This document shows positions 10,898 through 18,464 of a DNA stretch of 36,528 nt, in pieces; positions within the stretch are counted from its first letter, which is position 1; each line of letters starts with the position of its first letter. This DNA comes from a virus: positions 1 through 36,528 of the IMG/VR virus record IMGVR_UViG_3300031885_000059; one strand, written 5' to 3'. The position numbers and the translations under genes are program-made. The notes beneath the pieces were generated by a model. That model was not told where the DNA came from. It did no database searches and was given only the letters and a program-made list of their open reading frames with translations.

Positions 10898-11365
10898 CTA
10901 AGACTGCTGTGGCAAGGGGCCCACAAAGGCAATGAGGGAATTAACGACTTGCGGCGCCAGGCCGAGGGCGAGAAGCTGCTGCTTCAGAATGGCGAGGCGC
11001 GGGTCAGGCTGTCCGACCCGAAGCTCACGGGGCGTCATGCCAAGTTCGGAAGCCAGCTTCATCATCTGGTCCATCGCCTTGCTGGCGATCTGGAAATAGG
11101 GGGATTGAACCAGGTATTGAGCCTTCGTTCTAATGACCGGGCCGTACTCAACGATCTTCTGTTGCGCATGGCGCCAACTTGACCAGGCTTCGCAATAAAG
11201 GGCGAGAGCGTTAACGTCGATGTCCCTTGCGCCCGCGTCAAGGAGTCGCTTGCCAGTCCGTTCCCATTCGCTCTTCGCCTCTGGGGTCAGCCAGTCGGGG
11301 GCGGGCGGAAGCGTCAGCGCGCCCTCGGCGTCAGCGGGTGGGACTGTCTGCTCGGCATCAGTCAA
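10898..11365 (-). CDS. terS: Terminase small subunit (P27 family-like)
   Basis: 155 residues from TTG 11365, whose TTGA overlaps the upstream stop and which has AGGGGGA ahead of it. LTPEAKSEWERTGKRLLDAG, then ALALYCEAWSSWRHAQ and KAMDQMMKLASELGMTPRELRVG follow the P27-type small-terminase pattern (WERTGKRL...LTPRERAK). It would recognise the packaging site and load the large terminase. Its position directly after the ParB-type gene is notable. Confidence 0.85.
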   Translation of the reverse strand: MTDAEQTVPPADAEGALTLPPAPDWLTPEAKSEWERTGKRLLDAGARDIDVNALALYCEAWSSWRHAQQKIVEYGPVIRTKAQYLVQSPYFQIASKAMDQMMKLASELGMTPRELRVGQPDPRLAILKQQLLALGLAPQVVNSLIAFVGPLPQQS

Positions 11366-12174
11366 GGGATGGTCCCCCTTTGTTTGGAGCGCCGGGATGG
11401 AATTGCACCACCCTCTCCCGCATGGATAGCGGGCACATCGCTGTCTATGCTTCCAGCGCCCAGGGCTTCCTCGATCATGTCCAGCAACAGCATCATCGCC
11501 GTCGCGCCATTGCGGACGTCGCGCTCTGCCATCTTCTCGGCTAGCGCGTTCAGGAGCCGGTCGTGCTCGGACCACCGCGCCAGGATGGTCGGAGTCTTGA
11601 TGTCGGCCGCGATCTTGTCGAGCATGGAACGCAGCCGCTCCACCTCCTCCGGCAGAAAGGCGAACGAGATGACGTGGTAGTCCAGGGGGATGTCGGTTAG
11701 GGCCTGGGGTTCGATAGAGGCCAGTTGCAGAAGAATCGCGTCGTCGAGGCCGGAGTATTCCTTGAGGACCACGTCGTCGATCTCGTTGAACAGCTCCCGC
11801 AGGATGACCGAGTCGTCTTCTCCCACGATGGCGTTGTGCGAGAGCTGCTTCGCCACCTCTTCGCCCCTGGTCATGTCATCGGTGATGACCAGCACAGCTA
11901 GGCGCTGGATGCCAGCCTGCTTAGCTGCCATGACGCGATGATTCCCTGAGATGACGCGGAGCTTGCCGTCCGGGAGTAGCCGGCAGAGTGGGACGCTTTC
12001 GACCCGGCCGTCATGCTTGAGATTGTCCACCAGGGCGCCGAAGGTGGCGGCGGACATCATGCGCGCGTTCTTCTCGAGCAGTTGCAGCTCGTCTATGCTG
12101 GCGTATCTGAGCGTCAGACCGTCCGGCAGGCGAAGACTCAGTTCGTCGATGTCCCGTGATTTTGTAGCCACCAC
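11362..12174 (-). CDS. ParB/Srx-fold nuclease-domain protein
   Basis: 270 residues from GTG 12174, which has GGAGGGG 7 nt upstream and overlaps the preceding gene by 37 nt. The N-terminal domain shows LLEKNARMMSAATFGALVDNL and the signature SGNHRVMAAKQAG (residues 76-88), then QLSHNAIVGEDD. This phage ParB-type family is commonly found next to terminase. The C-terminal half is helical. The likely role is in DNA binding, nicking or modification linked to packaging. It is the third ParB-type protein in the window and differs from the two partition-like ones. Confidence 0.85.
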   Translation of the reverse strand: MVATKSRDIDELSLRLPDGLTLRYASIDELQLLEKNARMMSAATFGALVDNLKHDGRVESVPLCRLLPDGKLRVISGNHRVMAAKQAGIQRLAVLVITDDMTRGEEVAKQLSHNAIVGEDDSVILRELFNEIDDVVLKEYSGLDDAILLQLASIEPQALTDIPLDYHVISFAFLPEEVERLRSMLDKIAADIKTPTILARWSEHDRLLNALAEKMAERDVRNGATAMMLLLDMIEEALGAGSIDSDVPAIHAGEGGAIPSRRSKQRGTIP

Positions 12175-13454
12175 TCTAGCCCCTCCTGGAGCGTCCATCG
12201 TCCCAGCTCGCCGACATAGTTTAGGTGCCCCTCCTTGCGAGAGTGCAGTTTGTAGATGCCGCGATACTTCATGCTAACAGGCTTCTCCGTGAAAGCCGTA
12301 GTCCCGATGGTCTTCGCCCTGGCGACCATCCCGCCATCCGATAGCGAGAGCCTAAGCTCCCGGGACAGACTCGCGGCCAGGACGAGCTTGCCCAGGCGTC
12401 GATAGCGATGGTGGGGCACGGCCACGTCACACATCATGTAGAGGTCGCAGAAGCCGGCGCCTGCAGAGCTACGGGAGAAGCCCAGGACCCCGACGAGGTA
12501 CTCGTCCATCATGACGGCGAACGTGAATTGTGGCTGCGCCGGGATGATGTTCTTGCCGAGCAGGCAGTCGCGAAGCCAGCGGAAGGCGGGCGCGTCCAGC
12601 TTCATCAGCCGAAGTTTGCAGGAGGGCGAGATCTCGGCGTCCTGGGGCAGTCTCTTCAGGTGGGGGTCACGGGTCTTCTCTCGTGTCCTGGCAAGGCGAG
12701 AGTGGCCCAGGCTCCCATAGCAGTAGACGGGGCGCTTTCGCAGAGATGGCACAGCGACGCCGACGAGGTGGCCGCGGAGGTCCTCGATAAGCCGATCGTT
12801 AAACAGCAGCCAGTGGGGTCGGATGGTGAGAATCGCTATGAGCTGGGCCATGCTTGACTCGTCGAACATGCGATAGGAGGGCCGGTCTCGCCAGTCGAAC
12901 ACCTTGTCCATGTTCTTGTAAAGCTGCTCGTATCCGCCCTTGTAGGTTGGCGGGGCGGTCATAATTCCGGCGCCGGCGGGAGCCGCGGAGAGGTGATCGA
13001 TCACGTCGCCGGCGTAGTATGAGGCGGCCTTCAGGCCGCCGAGGGCCTTCTCCGCCTTTGCCTTTGTCCCCTCGTGCAGATCATTGAAATGAACCCGGTA
13101 TGCCTCCACGCGGCGCGTCCAATATTCCGAGTCCTTGCCGTAGCCCCGCAGCATCGACGTACAAAGCAGCAGGGTGGCGACGGTATCGAGCGGAGTCTTC
13201 AGGTAGGACCCCAGCCAAGCATACTCCTGGTCCTTGATGGCAAGGCCCAGGGCAGCCCCCGTTAGGTAGGCGCCGATAGCGGAGCTGTAGAGGCTGACGT
13301 CGCTGGAGTGGCAGTTGACGGGGACAGATGCGAGGGCGCGTTCGAGGCCGAATTTGCCGGAGCAGCCCACATAGAGGTCGGAGACGGGCCAGTCTCGGAC
13401 GGCCTCAAGGGCCATCGACTTGAGAGGCTGGGGCAGGCCGCCGATGAAGGGCAT
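12138..13454 (-). CDS. Methyltransferase-like + Mom-like acyltransferase fusion
   Basis: 438 residues from MPFIGG (13454). The N-terminal domain has LYVGCSGKFGLERAL (27-41, like AdoMet motif I), HSSDVSLYS (49-57, acidic motif II) and APPTYKGGYEQLY (167-179, in place of the DPPY catalytic motif). It resembles phage proteins annotated as putative antirestriction adenine methyltransferases. The C-terminal domain (about 305-430) looks GNAT/Mom-like: DLYMMCDVAVP, RYRRLGKLVLAASLSREL, and KPVSMKYRGIYKLHSRKEG. Mu Mom modifies adenine in phage DNA to resist restriction. The gene lies between DUF488 and ParB-type genes, so a DNA-modification role is likely but inferred. Confidence 0.7.
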   Translation of the reverse strand: MPFIGGLPQPLKSMALEAVRDWPVSDLYVGCSGKFGLERALASVPVNCHSSDVSLYSSAIGAYLTGAALGLAIKDQEYAWLGSYLKTPLDTVATLLLCTSMLRGYGKDSEYWTRRVEAYRVHFNDLHEGTKAKAEKALGGLKAASYYAGDVIDHLSAAPAGAGIMTAPPTYKGGYEQLYKNMDKVFDWRDRPSYRMFDESSMAQLIAILTIRPHWLLFNDRLIEDLRGHLVGVAVPSLRKRPVYCYGSLGHSRLARTREKTRDPHLKRLPQDAEISPSCKLRLMKLDAPAFRWLRDCLLGKNIIPAQPQFTFAVMMDEYLVGVLGFSRSSAGAGFCDLYMMCDVAVPHHRYRRLGKLVLAASLSRELRLSLSDGGMVARAKTIGTTAFTEKPVSMKYRGIYKLHSRKEGHLNYVGELGRWTLQEGLEWWLQNHGTSTN

Positions 13455-13464
13455 TTCAGCGCTA

Positions 13465-13812
13465 TCATAAGGCCGGTGTCCACAAGCTCGGATTCTGCTC
13501 CGGCACCGATGTGCCGAGCTCCCGCTCCAGCCATTCCGCGACGAGGCGGCGGTGGCAGAACTCCCCGGGCTTCTCCCAGCAGAGAAGGATGGCATCCTCG
13601 CCGACTTCCTCTAGGATGGCCTTGGCGTCCAGACGCTCCAGCTGGAGCATGAACTTCTCGCGGAAGACGGCCTCGTCGGTCTCTTTCACCAGCGCCCAGG
13701 TCGCCGGTGCCAGAGGCAAGCACCTGCGACCCTTGAACCCTCTCGGTACCCCCCTGCTAATAGCGATGGCGTTGGGGTCCGTTCCTGAGAGTTTGAAGTT
13801 TGAGGTCTTCAT
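13465..13812 (-). CDS. DUF488-family protein
   Basis: 115 residues. ILLCWEKPGEFCHRRLVAEWLE (about 82-103) is the DUF488 signature. It begins at a TAATG overlap with the ParB stop. DUF488 has no settled biochemical role; in phages it recurs near DNA-modification genes. Its place between ParB and the Mom-like fusion suggests the same pathway. Confidence 0.8.
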   Translation of the reverse strand: MKTSNFKLSGTDPNAIAISRGVPRGFKGRRCLPLAPATWALVKETDEAVFREKFMLQLERLDAKAILEEVGEDAILLCWEKPGEFCHRRLVAEWLERELGTSVPEQNPSLWTPAL

Positions 13813-14672
13813 TAGATGATCCTCCCCGCGAGCGCCCGGCCCGTATGGGCCGTGAGAGCCCGGCGCATACCCGTTAGGCTCTTGATGAGCGTATCCAGAT
13901 AGGACATGGCCGTTTCCATCTCCGGGGCCAAGGCTTCGGCGATCTGGCTCTTGTCCAGGCCCGAGAGTTCCTGCGCCGCCTTAGCCGCCAGGACTAGCGC
14001 CCGATGGTAGGCCGCGACCGCCTGTCGGGCCCCATCGGACAGCTTGGTCTCCGGCATCATGTCCGCCTGGTTCTCCTCCATCCATATCTGGTCGCAGACG
14101 CCCCGAACCCCGTCGTCCCCTAGGCCCTTCTCCTGCCATATCCGCAGCACCCGGGCCTGACTGTTCAGGCTCAGCTTCGCCATGTAGTAGGCGATCCCCG
14201 GCTTCATCTGGCCGCGGCCGATTAGGTACTGGACGTCCTCGCGGAGATTCAGTAGGGCCACCCTCCACGTTATCTGGCTCGCCGGCAACCCCACGAGCGC
14301 CCCCACGTCCTGGAGGGACATCGGCCGCGCCAGGAGTTTGGCGAGCATCCTTGCCTCTTCCATCGGGTTGAGGTCTTCCCTGACCGCATTCTCCAGAACC
14401 GCCAGCTCATAGGCCTCATCGTCGGTGAGGTCCCGAACCAGAGCGGGGATGGTTTCCCAGCCGGCCAGTTGGGCCGCTCGGAAGCGCCGCTCGCCGGCCA
14501 CAACCTGGTAGTGGCTATTCACTGGCCGGACGGTGATCGGCTGGAGCAGCCCCTTGTCCTGAAGGCTCGTCGCCAAATCCTGGAGCTTCTCCTTGTCGAA
14601 CTCCTGCCGCGGCTGGCCCGGATCAGCCTGGATTGCCGCTATCGGCAGATTGCTCACGGTCTGCTCTTCCAT
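13812..14672 (-). CDS. parB: ParB-family partition/DNA-binding protein
   Basis: 286 residues. The ParB/Srx domain spans about 5-95, with the box-II signature GERRFRAAQLAG at 60-71 and ENAVREDLNPMEEARML after it. A helix-turn-helix follows at about 118-140 (MSLQDVGALVGLPASQITWRV). The C-terminal part is helical. No ParA is seen in the window, so plasmid-like partition is not established; CTP-dependent clamp or modification-linked roles are alternatives. It is the first gene after a strong promoter (14718-14746), with a leader of about 39 nt. Confidence 0.9.
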   Translation of the reverse strand: MEEQTVSNLPIAAIQADPGQPRQEFDKEKLQDLATSLQDKGLLQPITVRPVNSHYQVVAGERRFRAAQLAGWETIPALVRDLTDDEAYELAVLENAVREDLNPMEEARMLAKLLARPMSLQDVGALVGLPASQITWRVALLNLREDVQYLIGRGQMKPGIAYYMAKLSLNSQARVLRIWQEKGLGDDGVRGVCDQIWMEENQADMMPETKLSDGARQAVAAYHRALVLAAKAAQELSGLDKSQIAEALAPEMETAMSYLDTLIKSLTGMRRALTAHTGRALAGRII

Positions 14673-15072
14673 TTGTCCTACCTACTTCTCGCTTCCTGAT
14701 ACACCCAACCTATGATTAGTGTAGCACGCTAACGCCGTATTGTCAATAGATAAGGGGGAAGAGGGCAGAATATTTCTCAGGACACGAAGCAGGGCTGGGG
14801 GCGATATCCGTAGATCCGGGGATGGGGGATTGTATGGAGATCTCGTTTTGTAGGGCGTGGCGGGCATTGTGGGGCAACAGATAAGGGGGCTAGAGGGGCC
14901 TAGAATCGTGCCTGGCGGGCGTAGCGGAATTGGCTGTGGGGGAATAGGGCGTTTGAGGGGTGCATATCCGCAATAGTTAGAGGCTCTGGGGGAGCAAAAG
15001 CGTGAAATGGCCTAGGATTGGGCCTAGAGGCTCGATACCCCAAGCCCAATTTCGCGCGTAGCCGTAGCCTTG
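14673..15072. other. 400-nt noncoding segment
   Basis: The only gene-free stretch above 300 nt. It carries the ParB promoter at its left end, an 11-bp direct repeat AGATAAGGGGG (14748-14758 and 14879-14889) and GGGCCTAGA at 14896-14904 and 15020-15028. It is purine-rich on the plus strand. No ORF with a ribosome-binding site, tRNA or U-tract terminator was found. It could hold a packaging, origin or ParB-binding site, but no known site is recognised. Confidence 0.6.
14718..14746 (-). promoter_or_regulatory. Sigma70-type promoter, family A (ParB operon)
   Basis: TTGACA (14741-14746), 17-nt spacer and TACACT (14718-14723) with an extended TGC before the -10. The spacer GGCGTTAGCGTGC and the upstream CTA are shared with the promoter at 29948-29976. 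It is expected to drive the modification and packaging operon. Confidence 0.85.
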
Positions 15073-15318: not shown

Positions 15319-16016
15319 GCGGCCACCACGACGACCCGGCCGGCTCTGACCGTCCGCTTGAGGCCATAGCGCTCATAGTAGTCGCCGACGTCGGGCGGCA
15401 CAGTCTTGTAGCTCCGCGTCTTGGGTGCCCGCAGCAACGCCTCGACAGCCGGACGCCTGAGCTCCGCTGGGTCCACCCGCCAGCAGTTGCGCCGCTTGTC
15501 GAACTGCCCCCTCAGAGTGCCGGCGGCGAGGAGCAGCCGCACCCGATGGTACGGGCAGCGGTACTCCTTAGCGATCTCAGCCGCCGACAGGTAGCCCTGC
15601 ATCGTGCGGGCTTTCAGCCCCAGGCCCTTGCTACCCAGCTTTGACCGGACGGCGCTCACAGGCCGATGCAGATGATGCCCTATCGCCTTCAGCGTCTTGT
15701 TGCCAGCGTGCTCCAGGAGGTAGGCAACCTCGGTCTCGGTCCAGTCCAGGTTCCGCAAGCTCACACGGGACGGCTCGACGCCGGTCGCCAGCCAGGCGCG
15801 GGCCATACCGTGGAAATACTCCAGGACCCGGCTCGATGGTGGCCAATCCACGTGGCCCTTCTTCAGATGGCTGTAGGTCGCATCCCGACACGGCAGAGCG
15901 CCGGTTAGCTCGGCTGCCGCACGGCGAAGACCTTCCAGGACGGCCTCACGAGTCCAGTAGCGCCTGTTCCCAAAAGGCGATCCCTGCCAGCGCGGCGATC
16001 TCACGCCGTCAGTCAC
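15315..16016 (-). CDS. DNA-binding protein with several HTH segments
   Basis: 233 residues from GTG 16016 (GTGA overlap with the methyltransferase stop). WTETEVAYLLEHAGNKTLKAIGHHL (about 91-115) is Myb/HTH-like, followed by GYLSAAEIAKEYRCPYHRVRLLL (about 140-162), an excisionase/MerR-like HTH with RRNCWRVDPAEL wing text. The N-terminal part (YWTREAVLEGLRRAAAEL) resembles a DNA-end or nuclease-associated helical repeat. It is a sequence-specific DNA-binding protein by appearance; its target is unknown. Confidence 0.78.
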   Translation of the reverse strand: MTDGVRSPRWQGSPFGNRRYWTREAVLEGLRRAAAELTGALPCRDATYSHLKKGHVDWPPSSRVLEYFHGMARAWLATGVEPSRVSLRNLDWTETEVAYLLEHAGNKTLKAIGHHLHRPVSAVRSKLGSKGLGLKARTMQGYLSAAEIAKEYRCPYHRVRLLLAAGTLRGQFDKRRNCWRVDPAELRRPAVEALLRAPKTRSYKTVPPDVGDYYERYGLKRTVRAGRVVVVAA

Positions 16017-16783
16017 AGCATCGACTCCTGTGTCGCCCCCCCCCCAGCGAGCGGCAACACGGCCTGGCTGAGGCGCTGCACGGCCATCTCGCAGTACTGC
16101 TCCTCGAGCTCGATGCCAATGGCGCGACGGCCCAGGTCCTTGGCTGCGCGGAGGGTGGTACCGGAGCCGCTGAAGGGGTCAAGGACGATATCGTCCTGCA
16201 CTGTGAAGAAGCGGACGAGCTTCCGCATCAGGGCTTCCGGCTTCTGCGTCGGGTGGGGCACCGCCTCTTTCATGTGCGGGCAGATCCGCGAGCTGTCAAG
16301 GCAGTCAGGGAGGTAATCCCACTCGCCGACGCGCTTACTCTGGTCGTGCGCCAGCCAGAACCACGGCTCCCAACGGCGGGCGATCCCGTGGCCAGACACG
16401 CCGCTCCCGTTCGGCTTGTACCAAACGCCCACGTGCCGGATATCCAGTCCGGCCTCCCAGCAGGCGTCAACAAACTCCTGCATGCGCCACCATTCAGACG
16501 CCCAGAAGCAGACGGAGTAGCCCTTGGCCGGAGGACAGAGCGTGAGCCCATCGATGGCCAGGGTGACTGCCTCAGGAGAAGTCAGGGCGACTGCCCCCCG
16601 ATAGCGGCCGGCCGGCGCGTGAGGCGCCTGCCCTCTCTGCCGGCGCTTCCTGAAGTCAACTCCCACGCCGTAGTCCGGGTCTGTGATGATCACGTCCGCC
16701 TGCAAGGAGGACAGGATGTCACGACAATCGCCGTGATACAGCACAATCCGCCCGTCCTCAGAGGTCCAGTACGGCTCAGGCAC
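16013..16783 (-). CDS. Site-specific DNA methyltransferase (N4/N6 type)
   Basis: 256 residues from GTG 16783, with GGAGG 6 nt upstream and an 8-nt overlap with the preceding gene. The catalytic motif is TDPDYGVG (34-41), where most relatives have DPPY. HPTQKPEAL (177-185) and DPFSGSGTT (202-210) follow, the order of beta-group enzymes. It would methylate adenine or cytosine amino groups, likely protecting phage DNA. No restriction enzyme is nearby. A run of ten G residues (16036-16045) sits close to the 3' end. Confidence 0.9.
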   Translation of the reverse strand: MPEPYWTSEDGRIVLYHGDCRDILSSLQADVIITDPDYGVGVDFRKRRQRGQAPHAPAGRYRGAVALTSPEAVTLAIDGLTLCPPAKGYSVCFWASEWWRMQEFVDACWEAGLDIRHVGVWYKPNGSGVSGHGIARRWEPWFWLAHDQSKRVGEWDYLPDCLDSSRICPHMKEAVPHPTQKPEALMRKLVRFFTVQDDIVLDPFSGSGTTLRAAKDLGRRAIGIELEEQYCEMAVQRLSQAVLPLAGGGATQESML

Positions 16784-17504
16784 TCCTCGCCTCCAAACGC
16801 GCCAGCCGTCCGGCGCAAGAGCCAAGAGGCCGCCGCAGGCAGGCCGCTATCGCCGCCAGGGGTCTGCCCTCCTCCCTCAGAGAGAGGAGCTGACCGTCTT
16901 CCTGCGGAGAGAAGCGCACGGGCCGCTTTCCCTTCTTGCTCCACTGGTAGGGAGGTACAAAGCCGCGCAGGTCCGCCTCCCTCACGAGCCAGTTGCCGCG
17001 CCGGACCGCCGGTAGTAAGCCTCGATGAATCCAAGCGTTGACGGCTGAGTGCCCAACACACAATCGAGTCGCGACCTGGCCCGTCGTGAGGAAGCGTGCG
17101 CCGTTCCGTAGGTCTGCGACCCACGACCTGAGCGCCGGCTCGACTGCCGCTGGGCTCCACAGGTGCCAGTAGCGTTCGTCCTCCAGGAAGCAGACGAGCG
17201 CGTCCTCCGTCACGTACCACGTCCGGTTCGGGCCTGCTCGTTGGCCACGCCGCCCCTTCAGGTAGCCGGCCCCTATCCACCAGGCCACGGTCTTGCTGCA
17301 GCGGACGCCTAGCTTCCTCGCCACCGTGCGGGCTGTCAGCAGCAGCCTCCTCCGTGGCGCTATGTGGTGACGTTTCCTAACCACCTGGACGGCGACAGCG
17401 CTGCAGCCCAGGGACTCGCCGATCTTCCGGTCCGTCCAGCCGCGGGCGAGCAGCTCCTCCAGCCGCAGCAGGTCTTCGGCGCTCCACTTCCACCGGCTCC
17501 TCAT
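16776..17504 (-). CDS. Multi-HTH DNA-binding protein
   Basis: 242 residues. Successive helix-turn-helix segments: residues 5-47 (WSAEDLLRLEELLARG, then KIGESLGCSAVAV), 55-90 (LTARTVARKLGVRCSKTVAWWI), 138-175 (FLTTGQVATRLCVGHSAVNAWI) and 200-235 (RFSPQEDGQLLSLREEG). Alternating Myb/SANT-like and MerR/excisionase-like units suggest it reads a long DNA site. Its start overlaps the preceding stop (ATGA). It precedes the methyltransferase in one operon. Confidence 0.82.
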   Translation of the reverse strand: MRSRWKWSAEDLLRLEELLARGWTDRKIGESLGCSAVAVQVVRKRHHIAPRRRLLLTARTVARKLGVRCSKTVAWWIGAGYLKGRRGQRAGPNRTWYVTEDALVCFLEDERYWHLWSPAAVEPALRSWVADLRNGARFLTTGQVATRLCVGHSAVNAWIHRGLLPAVRRGNWLVREADLRGFVPPYQWSKKGKRPVRFSPQEDGQLLSLREEGRPLAAIAACLRRPLGSCAGRLARLEARSA

Positions 17505-18389: not shown

Positions 18390-18464
18390 TGGTAGCGGCG
18401 GGAGGAGTCGAACCTCCGACCTTCGGGTTATGAGCCCGACGAGCTGCCACTGCTCCACGCCGCG
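18390..18464 (-). tRNA. tRNA-Met(CAT), initiator type
   Basis: 75 nt including an encoded CCA. 5' arm CGCGGCG, D-stem GAGC/GCTC, anticodon arm TCGGG-CTCATAA-CCCGA, variable AGGTC, T-arm GGAGG-TTCGACT-CCTCC, 3' arm CGCCGCT, discriminator A. Three consecutive G-C pairs next to the anticodon loop and the unpaired C1-U72 are hallmarks of initiator tRNA, rather than elongator Met or the CAT-anticodon tRNA-Ile2. It should supply formyl-Met for translation initiation. Confidence 0.92.

Follow-up and report, generated by a model that had tools for sequence, protein, structure and literature searches.

Introduction

The Mom enzyme of phage Mu yields a carbamoylmethyl (glycinamide-type) adenine in DNA. 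Another DNA-adenine fold, that of the Dam-type methyltransferases, carries the motif DPPY, with an Asp involved in methyl transfer. Outside DNA modification, a staphylococcal non-proteinogenic tRNA-Gly supplies the Fem enzymes; its glycyl-tRNA is diverted from translation, its decoding and EF-Tu features are weakened, and it is the donor for cell-wall peptide. The phage protein studied here has the same architecture, across its entire length, as the families PF22555 and PF22559 (phrog_7858). These families are named without a function, and their descriptions mention neither of the two partners that we observe, a tRNA-Gly-like RNA and a ParB-like protein.

In this study, we analysed a 36,528-base virus record, IMGVR_UViG_3300031885_000059 (hereafter, the window). 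It encodes a fusion of a Dam-like domain and a GNAT (Mom-like) domain, a ParB-like partner (ParB2), and a small RNA gene resembling tRNA-Gly. We propose that this module probably makes a glycine-type modification of a DNA base, using a glycyl-tRNA as the donor, analogous to the staphylococcal system except that DNA would be the acceptor.

A tRNA-Gly-like RNA gene accompanies the fusion gene

In the window, the RNA gene and the 3′ part of the ParB2 frame overlap, ahead of the small terminase start. The RNA was matched with 61.3 bits and an expectation value (E) of 4.6e-10 by R1, a covariance model built from 33 RNAs linked to other fusion genes and excluding the window and its close relatives L005, L006, and L007; the encoded CCA extends beyond the match (Table 1). 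The minimum-energy fold is a cloverleaf, and the glycine-identity bases and the CCA are present. The anticodon loop, UAUCCAU, has an A replacing U33, the T-loop reads UGCAAUU instead of the canonical sequence, and the D-loop lacks GG. Neither ARAGORN nor the Rfam tRNA model, at E up to 10, detected this gene. L005, L006, and L007 also have the RNA, with compensatory D-stem changes in L005 and L007. An earlier reading of the window from its sequence alone (the original prediction) had proposed that the cluster makes a modified base. DNA modification is still the best reading, but that prediction overlooked the RNA gene lying inside the cluster, which changes the mechanism.

The annotation of Mycobacterium phage Jeon places a tRNA-Gly immediately before the fusion gene, and we therefore scanned 164 fusion loci, a set without the two copies of the window (L001, L008) and the partial gene of L007. 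Within 600 bp upstream of the fusion, ARAGORN found 43 tRNA-Gly genes on the same strand, 2 on the opposite strand, 2 tRNAs of unassigned isotype, and 1 tRNA-Ser; the rest of the loci held 7 tRNA-Gly and 21 tRNAs of other isotypes. R1 identified RNAs in 89 of the 164 loci (E up to 0.05), representing 32 of 44 clusters at 50% identity, and 19 of its 22 pairs show double changes. The 89 loci include the weak matches L076, L082, L156, L160, and L153, and were counted from 108 R1 rows after L007 and 18 other matches were set aside (16 were ARAGORN tRNAs of other isotypes; L147:1–47 and L102:3848–3917 were unassigned). As to placement, 68 of the 89 RNAs share the strand of the fusion and are at most 600 bp upstream of it, 8 lie downstream, near or after ParB2, and 11 lie 696–4268 bp upstream. 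On a tree of 85 representatives, 51 of them with the RNA, its distribution needs at least 20 changes, 13 of which are forced by well-supported branches. The carriers include Actinomycetota, Bacillota, Chloroflexota, Planctomycetota, and Pseudomonadota genomes. A 67-nucleotide version, with a shortened D-arm and intact acceptor and T-arm, is found upstream of the fusion in L071, L074, L077, L083, L127, L130, and their relatives, some of which are Deltaproteobacteria-type genomes.

Such RNAs might be attachment-site scars, left by integration into host tRNA-Gly genes. Several actinobacteriophages have a tRNA-Gly attB, with cores of 42–51 bp in the table of PMC10865867. The longest exact matches of the RNAs to 17 host tRNA-Gly are mostly 6–11 bases, with a maximum of 17 for fusion-linked and 18 for Mom-linked RNAs, so short against the tabulated cores that an attachment-site copy was rejected; host tRNA-Gly genes have 12–45 bases in common with each other. 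Since the RNAs are also full length and their pairs covary, an origin as scars is very improbable.

Glycine-identity bases are kept and decoding features have decayed

Glycyl-tRNA synthetase recognizes its tRNA by G1─C72, C2─G71, G3─C70, U73, C35, and C36. Among 74 distinct fusion-linked RNAs (identical RNAs merged; 6 non-Gly matches dropped), the GCG/CGC ends were found in 72, U73 in all 74, and C35C36 in 70. The features used in decoding were far more variable: U33 was present in 40 of 70 RNAs, while of the full 74 only 41 had a canonical T-loop and 32 the GG of the D-loop. The anticodons (n = 70) were TCC (40), ACC (18), and CCC (12), with no GCC. As a control, we took 19 host tRNA-Gly from 11 carrier genomes, a set that leaves out 7 loci of prophage RNAs and still contains the odd L471 and the misparsed L459:1132. 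All 18 parsable host loops had U33, 3 host RNAs had GCC, and none had ACC. The retained identity bases and the decayed decoding features together indicate that selection seems to preserve glycine charging, not decoding. The odd control is a non-canonical tRNA-Gly in one Streptomyces genome (L471:1501–1571, minus strand) with the T-loop TGCAAGG.

Phages often encode tRNAs, and the retained cloverleaf fold and glycine identity would suit an ordinary phage tRNA that decodes glycine codons and lies beside the fusion incidentally. The loss of U33 in 30 of 70 RNAs and the anticodon usage, both at odds with the host controls, speak against this view, as does the finding that nearly every tRNA adjoining the fusion is a tRNA-Gly. 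The RNA also accompanies two diverged enzyme families and occurs on either side of the genes. We consider the incidental explanation quite improbable.

The fusion protein combines an altered Dam-like half with a Mom-like GNAT domain

The fusion protein matches PF22555 (DAM-like-phage1; E = 8.6e-74, 248.7 bits) at approximately residues 3–264 and PF22559 (GNAT-phage-like; E = 3.8e-41, 141.1 bits) at approximately residues 280–433, both with cut-offs of 27. An AlphaFold2 model from 54 sequences had a mean predicted local distance difference test score (pLDDT) of 93.1. In alignments of this model, residues 1–250 shared the fold of the Dam-type adenine methyltransferases from E. coli (2g1p, Z = 15.1) and T4 (1yf3, Z = 14.2); a PDB sequence search with the fusion profile returned only noise. 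The AdoMet-type domain with APPTY in place of DPPY that had been read from the sequence is thus a Dam-type fold with an altered catalytic motif (residues 167–171). The Asp of DPPY is absent in all 159 aligned relatives, which have F (132), Y (21), H (3), A (2), or W (1) at this position, and the usual route of methylation is therefore probably closed to the Dam-like half. An active methyltransferase is accordingly disfavoured. Invariant in the 159 relatives are G33, D52, D150, P169, D343, K356, T385, S394, K396, Y397, R398, and G399. The fusion gene of L132 is interrupted precisely at its degenerate FPPTY motif by a long insertion resembling an intein, a placement which suggests that the site is still functionally important; owing to the insertion, L132 was excluded from the tree, the prediction alignments, and the residue counts.

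The C-terminal domain adopts a GNAT fold, with Mu Mom (8bv8) as its best solved match in the VIA comparison. The match reached Z = 10.8 within the whole fusion model; when the domain was modelled alone (pLDDT 93.5), 8bv8 ranked first among 999 chains, with Z = 11.0, a root-mean-square deviation of 3.2, and 134 aligned residues. Mu Mom was also among the top Foldseek matches. A profile–profile comparison against 139 Mom sequences gave a probability of 86% and E = 4.7e-6, covering the first half of the GNAT domain, while three control profiles gave at most 0.28%. Both structure prediction and sensitive profile comparison hence bore out the Mom/GNAT similarity expected for this domain. In sequence, hmmscan found no match of the fusion to the Mom family PF25680 at E up to 1, and the Mom motifs ELxR and S-[FY]-AD...G-x-x-G...Y-x-A (SFAD...GHxGxIYQA) have no counterpart in the fusion, which has TTAF..PVSMKYRG and, unlike Mu Mom, is joined to a Dam-like domain. 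The GNAT half retains PVSMKYRG as a strict active-site-like signature. The C-terminal part of phrog_2443, an "amidoligase enzyme", matches the GNAT domain (E = 8.9e-9), and, judged by this match, the amidoligase–GNAT phage protein may act in the same chemistry.

The same RNA lies beside mom genes

In Microbacterium phage Appa, mom (identified by tblastn from Mu Mom) has a ParB-like gene on one side and an annotated tRNA-Gly on the other. Mom relatives were collected by searches with three separate alignments, their loci were not redundancy-reduced, and one analysis used 51 chosen Mom loci. In the Appa/Shade-type subfamily, 56 of 82 mom genes carry the RNA at their 3′ end (54 on the same strand, 2 on the opposite), a fraction that is no fair sample of all mom genes because Appa was among the queries. 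These RNAs mostly overlap the end of mom, as the window RNA overlaps ParB2, and a ParB-like gene lies no more than 1 kb away in 43 of the 82 loci. A second mom subfamily yielded 12 R1 RNAs in 80 searched loci; in 10 of 85 loci, the RNA lies within 300 bp of, or overlaps, the called mom frame. The Mu-like set served as the background control for R1, with 2 matches in 361 kb. In L226, identical tRNA-Gly-like RNAs (19–90 and 2175–2246) flank mom at both ends of a 2.3-kb contig, and this pair is perhaps a contig end repeat.

The pairing with a GNAT enzyme also allows for a different activity. TacT-type GNAT toxins acetylate Gly-tRNA, and the nearest folds after Mom are GNATs that use acetyl-CoA. 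The GNAT domain could thus acetylate glycyl-tRNA in a TacT-like manner, with the phage RNA as the substrate, a decoy, or an antidote, leaving the DNA unmodified. This is unlikely, given the Dam-like fusion partner of the domain, the ParB-like gene that goes with it, and the presence of the same RNA beside Mom-family genes. The product of Mom is modified DNA, and 8bv8 itself is titled "Methylcarbamoylase mom".

Partner genes and the neighbourhood of the module

The module genes and the small terminase lie on the minus strand in a single orientation, in the order of Table 1. The four-gene cluster that the original prediction had placed directly ahead of the small terminase is present in full, on the basis of Pfam and PHROG matches.

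Table 1. Features of the module and its surroundings in the window.
Feature	Position	Strand	Evidence
N6_N4-type DNA methyltransferase, upstream of module	16013–16825	−	PF01555, E 3.9e-27
Initiator-like tRNA-Met (CAT)	18390–18464	−	Rfam tRNA, 63.5 bits; ARAGORN
Sigma-70-like promoter match upstream of ParB1	14718–14746	−	TTGACA-17-TACACT with TG
ParB1, HTH_ParB domain, first cluster gene	13812–14672	−	PF02195, 116 bits; PF17762, 38 bits
DUF488-N3a protein with C...CHR motif	13465–13812	−	PF22751, 28.0 bits (cut-off 27)
Dam-like + GNAT (Mom-like) fusion, 438 amino acids	12138–13454	−	PF22555 + PF22559
Part encoding the GNAT domain matched by phrog_2443	12138–12650	−	
ParB-like gene 2 (ParB2)	11362–12198	−	phrog_7405, E 1.1e-58
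tRNA-Gly-like RNA gene, 75 nucleotides including encoded CCA	11385–11459	−	Covariance model R1 (match at 11387–11459)
Small terminase, P27 type (not counted in module)	10898–11365, TTG start at 11365	−	PF05119, E 1.8e-21

ParB2 is the conserved partner of the fusion. It adjoins the fusion gene in 51 of 52 representatives and in 149 of the 160 loci that have 1 kb of downstream sequence. Its match to the Pfam family ParB_N (PF02195) reaches 12.9 bits against a cut-off of 26.3, and several PHROGs of the ParB type match it with E values as low as 4e-13. ParB1, which had also been counted as part of the module, is present in the window, but its membership in the conserved core was not borne out, the constant partner being ParB2. 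DUF488 relatives occur in 115 fusion loci, directly upstream of the fusion in 71, and in 25 of the 52 representatives; all 8 sampled relatives belong to DUF488 by Pfam, and 4 of these pass the Pfam-A cut-off. The DUF488-N3a match is the point of likeness to the RapZ-C/DUF488/DUF4326 clade, whose members in the rhodanese-phosphatase superfamily have reportedly been predicted to act in phage nucleic-acid-modifying systems. These systems are not known to include a tRNA component.

The strong promoter assigned to the cluster was recovered in part. A TTGACA-17-TACACT match with TG does precede ParB1, but the count of promoter-type sites there (1) equals that expected from shuffled sequence (1.0). 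No tRNA was detected by ARAGORN, Rfam, or R1 in the 400-bp gap upstream of ParB1. The suggested link to packaging was not supported: relatives of the small terminase turned up in just 8 fusion loci, in each case no more than 2.5 kb from the fusion, and the terminase neighbour is therefore mostly peculiar to this phage group. The tRNA-Met, located 5 kb off, is the sole ARAGORN tRNA in the window; ARAGORN also found tRNA-Met(cat) in the fusion loci L021, L024, and L037. Relatives of the PF01555 methyltransferase occur in just 4 fusion loci, none of them close to the fusion.

Discussion

Two diverged GNAT enzymes, each tied to DNA modification through its fold or its family, are repeatedly paired with a tRNA that appears chargeable and non-decoding, and a glycyl-tRNA donor is the simplest account of this pairing. 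In the proposed mechanism, the tRNA-Gly-like RNA would be cut out of the transcript, the host glycyl-tRNA synthetase would attach glycine to it, and its decayed decoding features would keep the charged RNA out of translation. The Dam-like domain, having lost the methyl-transfer Asp, would bind DNA and present a base, most likely adenine, onto which the Mom-like GNAT domain would move the glycine from the tRNA. ParB2, with a putative CTPase/DNA-clamp-type fold, may position the enzyme or load it on the phage DNA, and DUF488 would be an accessory. The modification would hide the phage DNA from bacterial defences.

This mechanism might extend to the whole class. Mom-type GNAT enzymes of phages, including Mu Mom, would then transfer glycine from glycyl-tRNA to DNA adenine; many phages would supply a dedicated non-decoding tRNA-Gly, and Mu would use a host tRNA. 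We regard the arguments for and against this extension as evenly balanced. A glycyl group on adenine N6 and the carbamoylmethyl group of Mom are equal in mass, both adding C2H3NO. If the glycyl amine attacked C6 within the same molecule, in a Smiles-type rearrangement, the glycyl form would become the carbamoylmethyl form, and this route would account for the carbon and the amide nitrogen without an additional donor.

Alternatively, a Mom-like or other base modification could draw on another donor, such as an acyl-CoA, AdoMet, or a free metabolite, the link to tRNA-Gly having a separate cause. Several observations favour this alternative or otherwise weigh against a glycyl-tRNA donor. GNATs normally use CoA, and two plain acetyltransferases nearly equal Mom as fold matches of the C-terminal domain (Z = 10.4 and 10.2 versus 11.0), while the remainder of the fold list consists of CoA-using GNATs; with plain acetyltransferases within 1 Z of Mom, the fold by itself is no proof of Mom kinship. 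R1 detected no RNA in 75 of the 164 fusion loci, which would then depend on a tRNA from the host. Among these is a Streptomyces group of 33 fusion loci, of which 6 sampled loci were negative even with filters off. Of the 85 Mu-like mom loci, a single one has an RNA as close to mom as in the second subfamily, and one further RNA is in the vicinity (L365, L357), so that the Mu-like enzymes would have to rely on a host tRNA; the sampling around Appa, noted above, further limits what the mom loci can tell. The folding energy of the window RNA is ordinary (z = −0.96). The odd tRNA-Gly of L471 has no recognized fusion or Mom gene alongside, showing that odd tRNA-Gly genes are not exclusive to modification modules. 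Finally, PMC7824862 describes Mom as using an acyl-CoA such as glycyl-CoA. A different donor would, however, offer no reason for the recurrent association of tRNA-Gly with two enzyme families, and we judge it improbable; a glycyl-tRNA donor remains our preferred reading.

We know of no DNA modification that draws its group from an aminoacyl-tRNA, and of no phage DNA-modification system that brings its own non-decoding tRNA. In the open literature, as covered by titles and abstract openings and with subscription papers and preprints mostly outside, we found no paper that connects tRNA-Gly with Mom or with DNA modification in phages. If true, an aminoacyl-tRNA-dependent DNA modification would connect the translation machinery to DNA modification and offer a candidate answer to the long-standing question of the Mom donor. 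Cultured phages suited to a test include Jeon, the Gordonia phages Jollymon and Clawz, Arthrobacter phage Shade, and Microbacterium phage Appa. An odd tRNA-Gly next to an uncharacterized gene would, moreover, be a marker for more modification systems.

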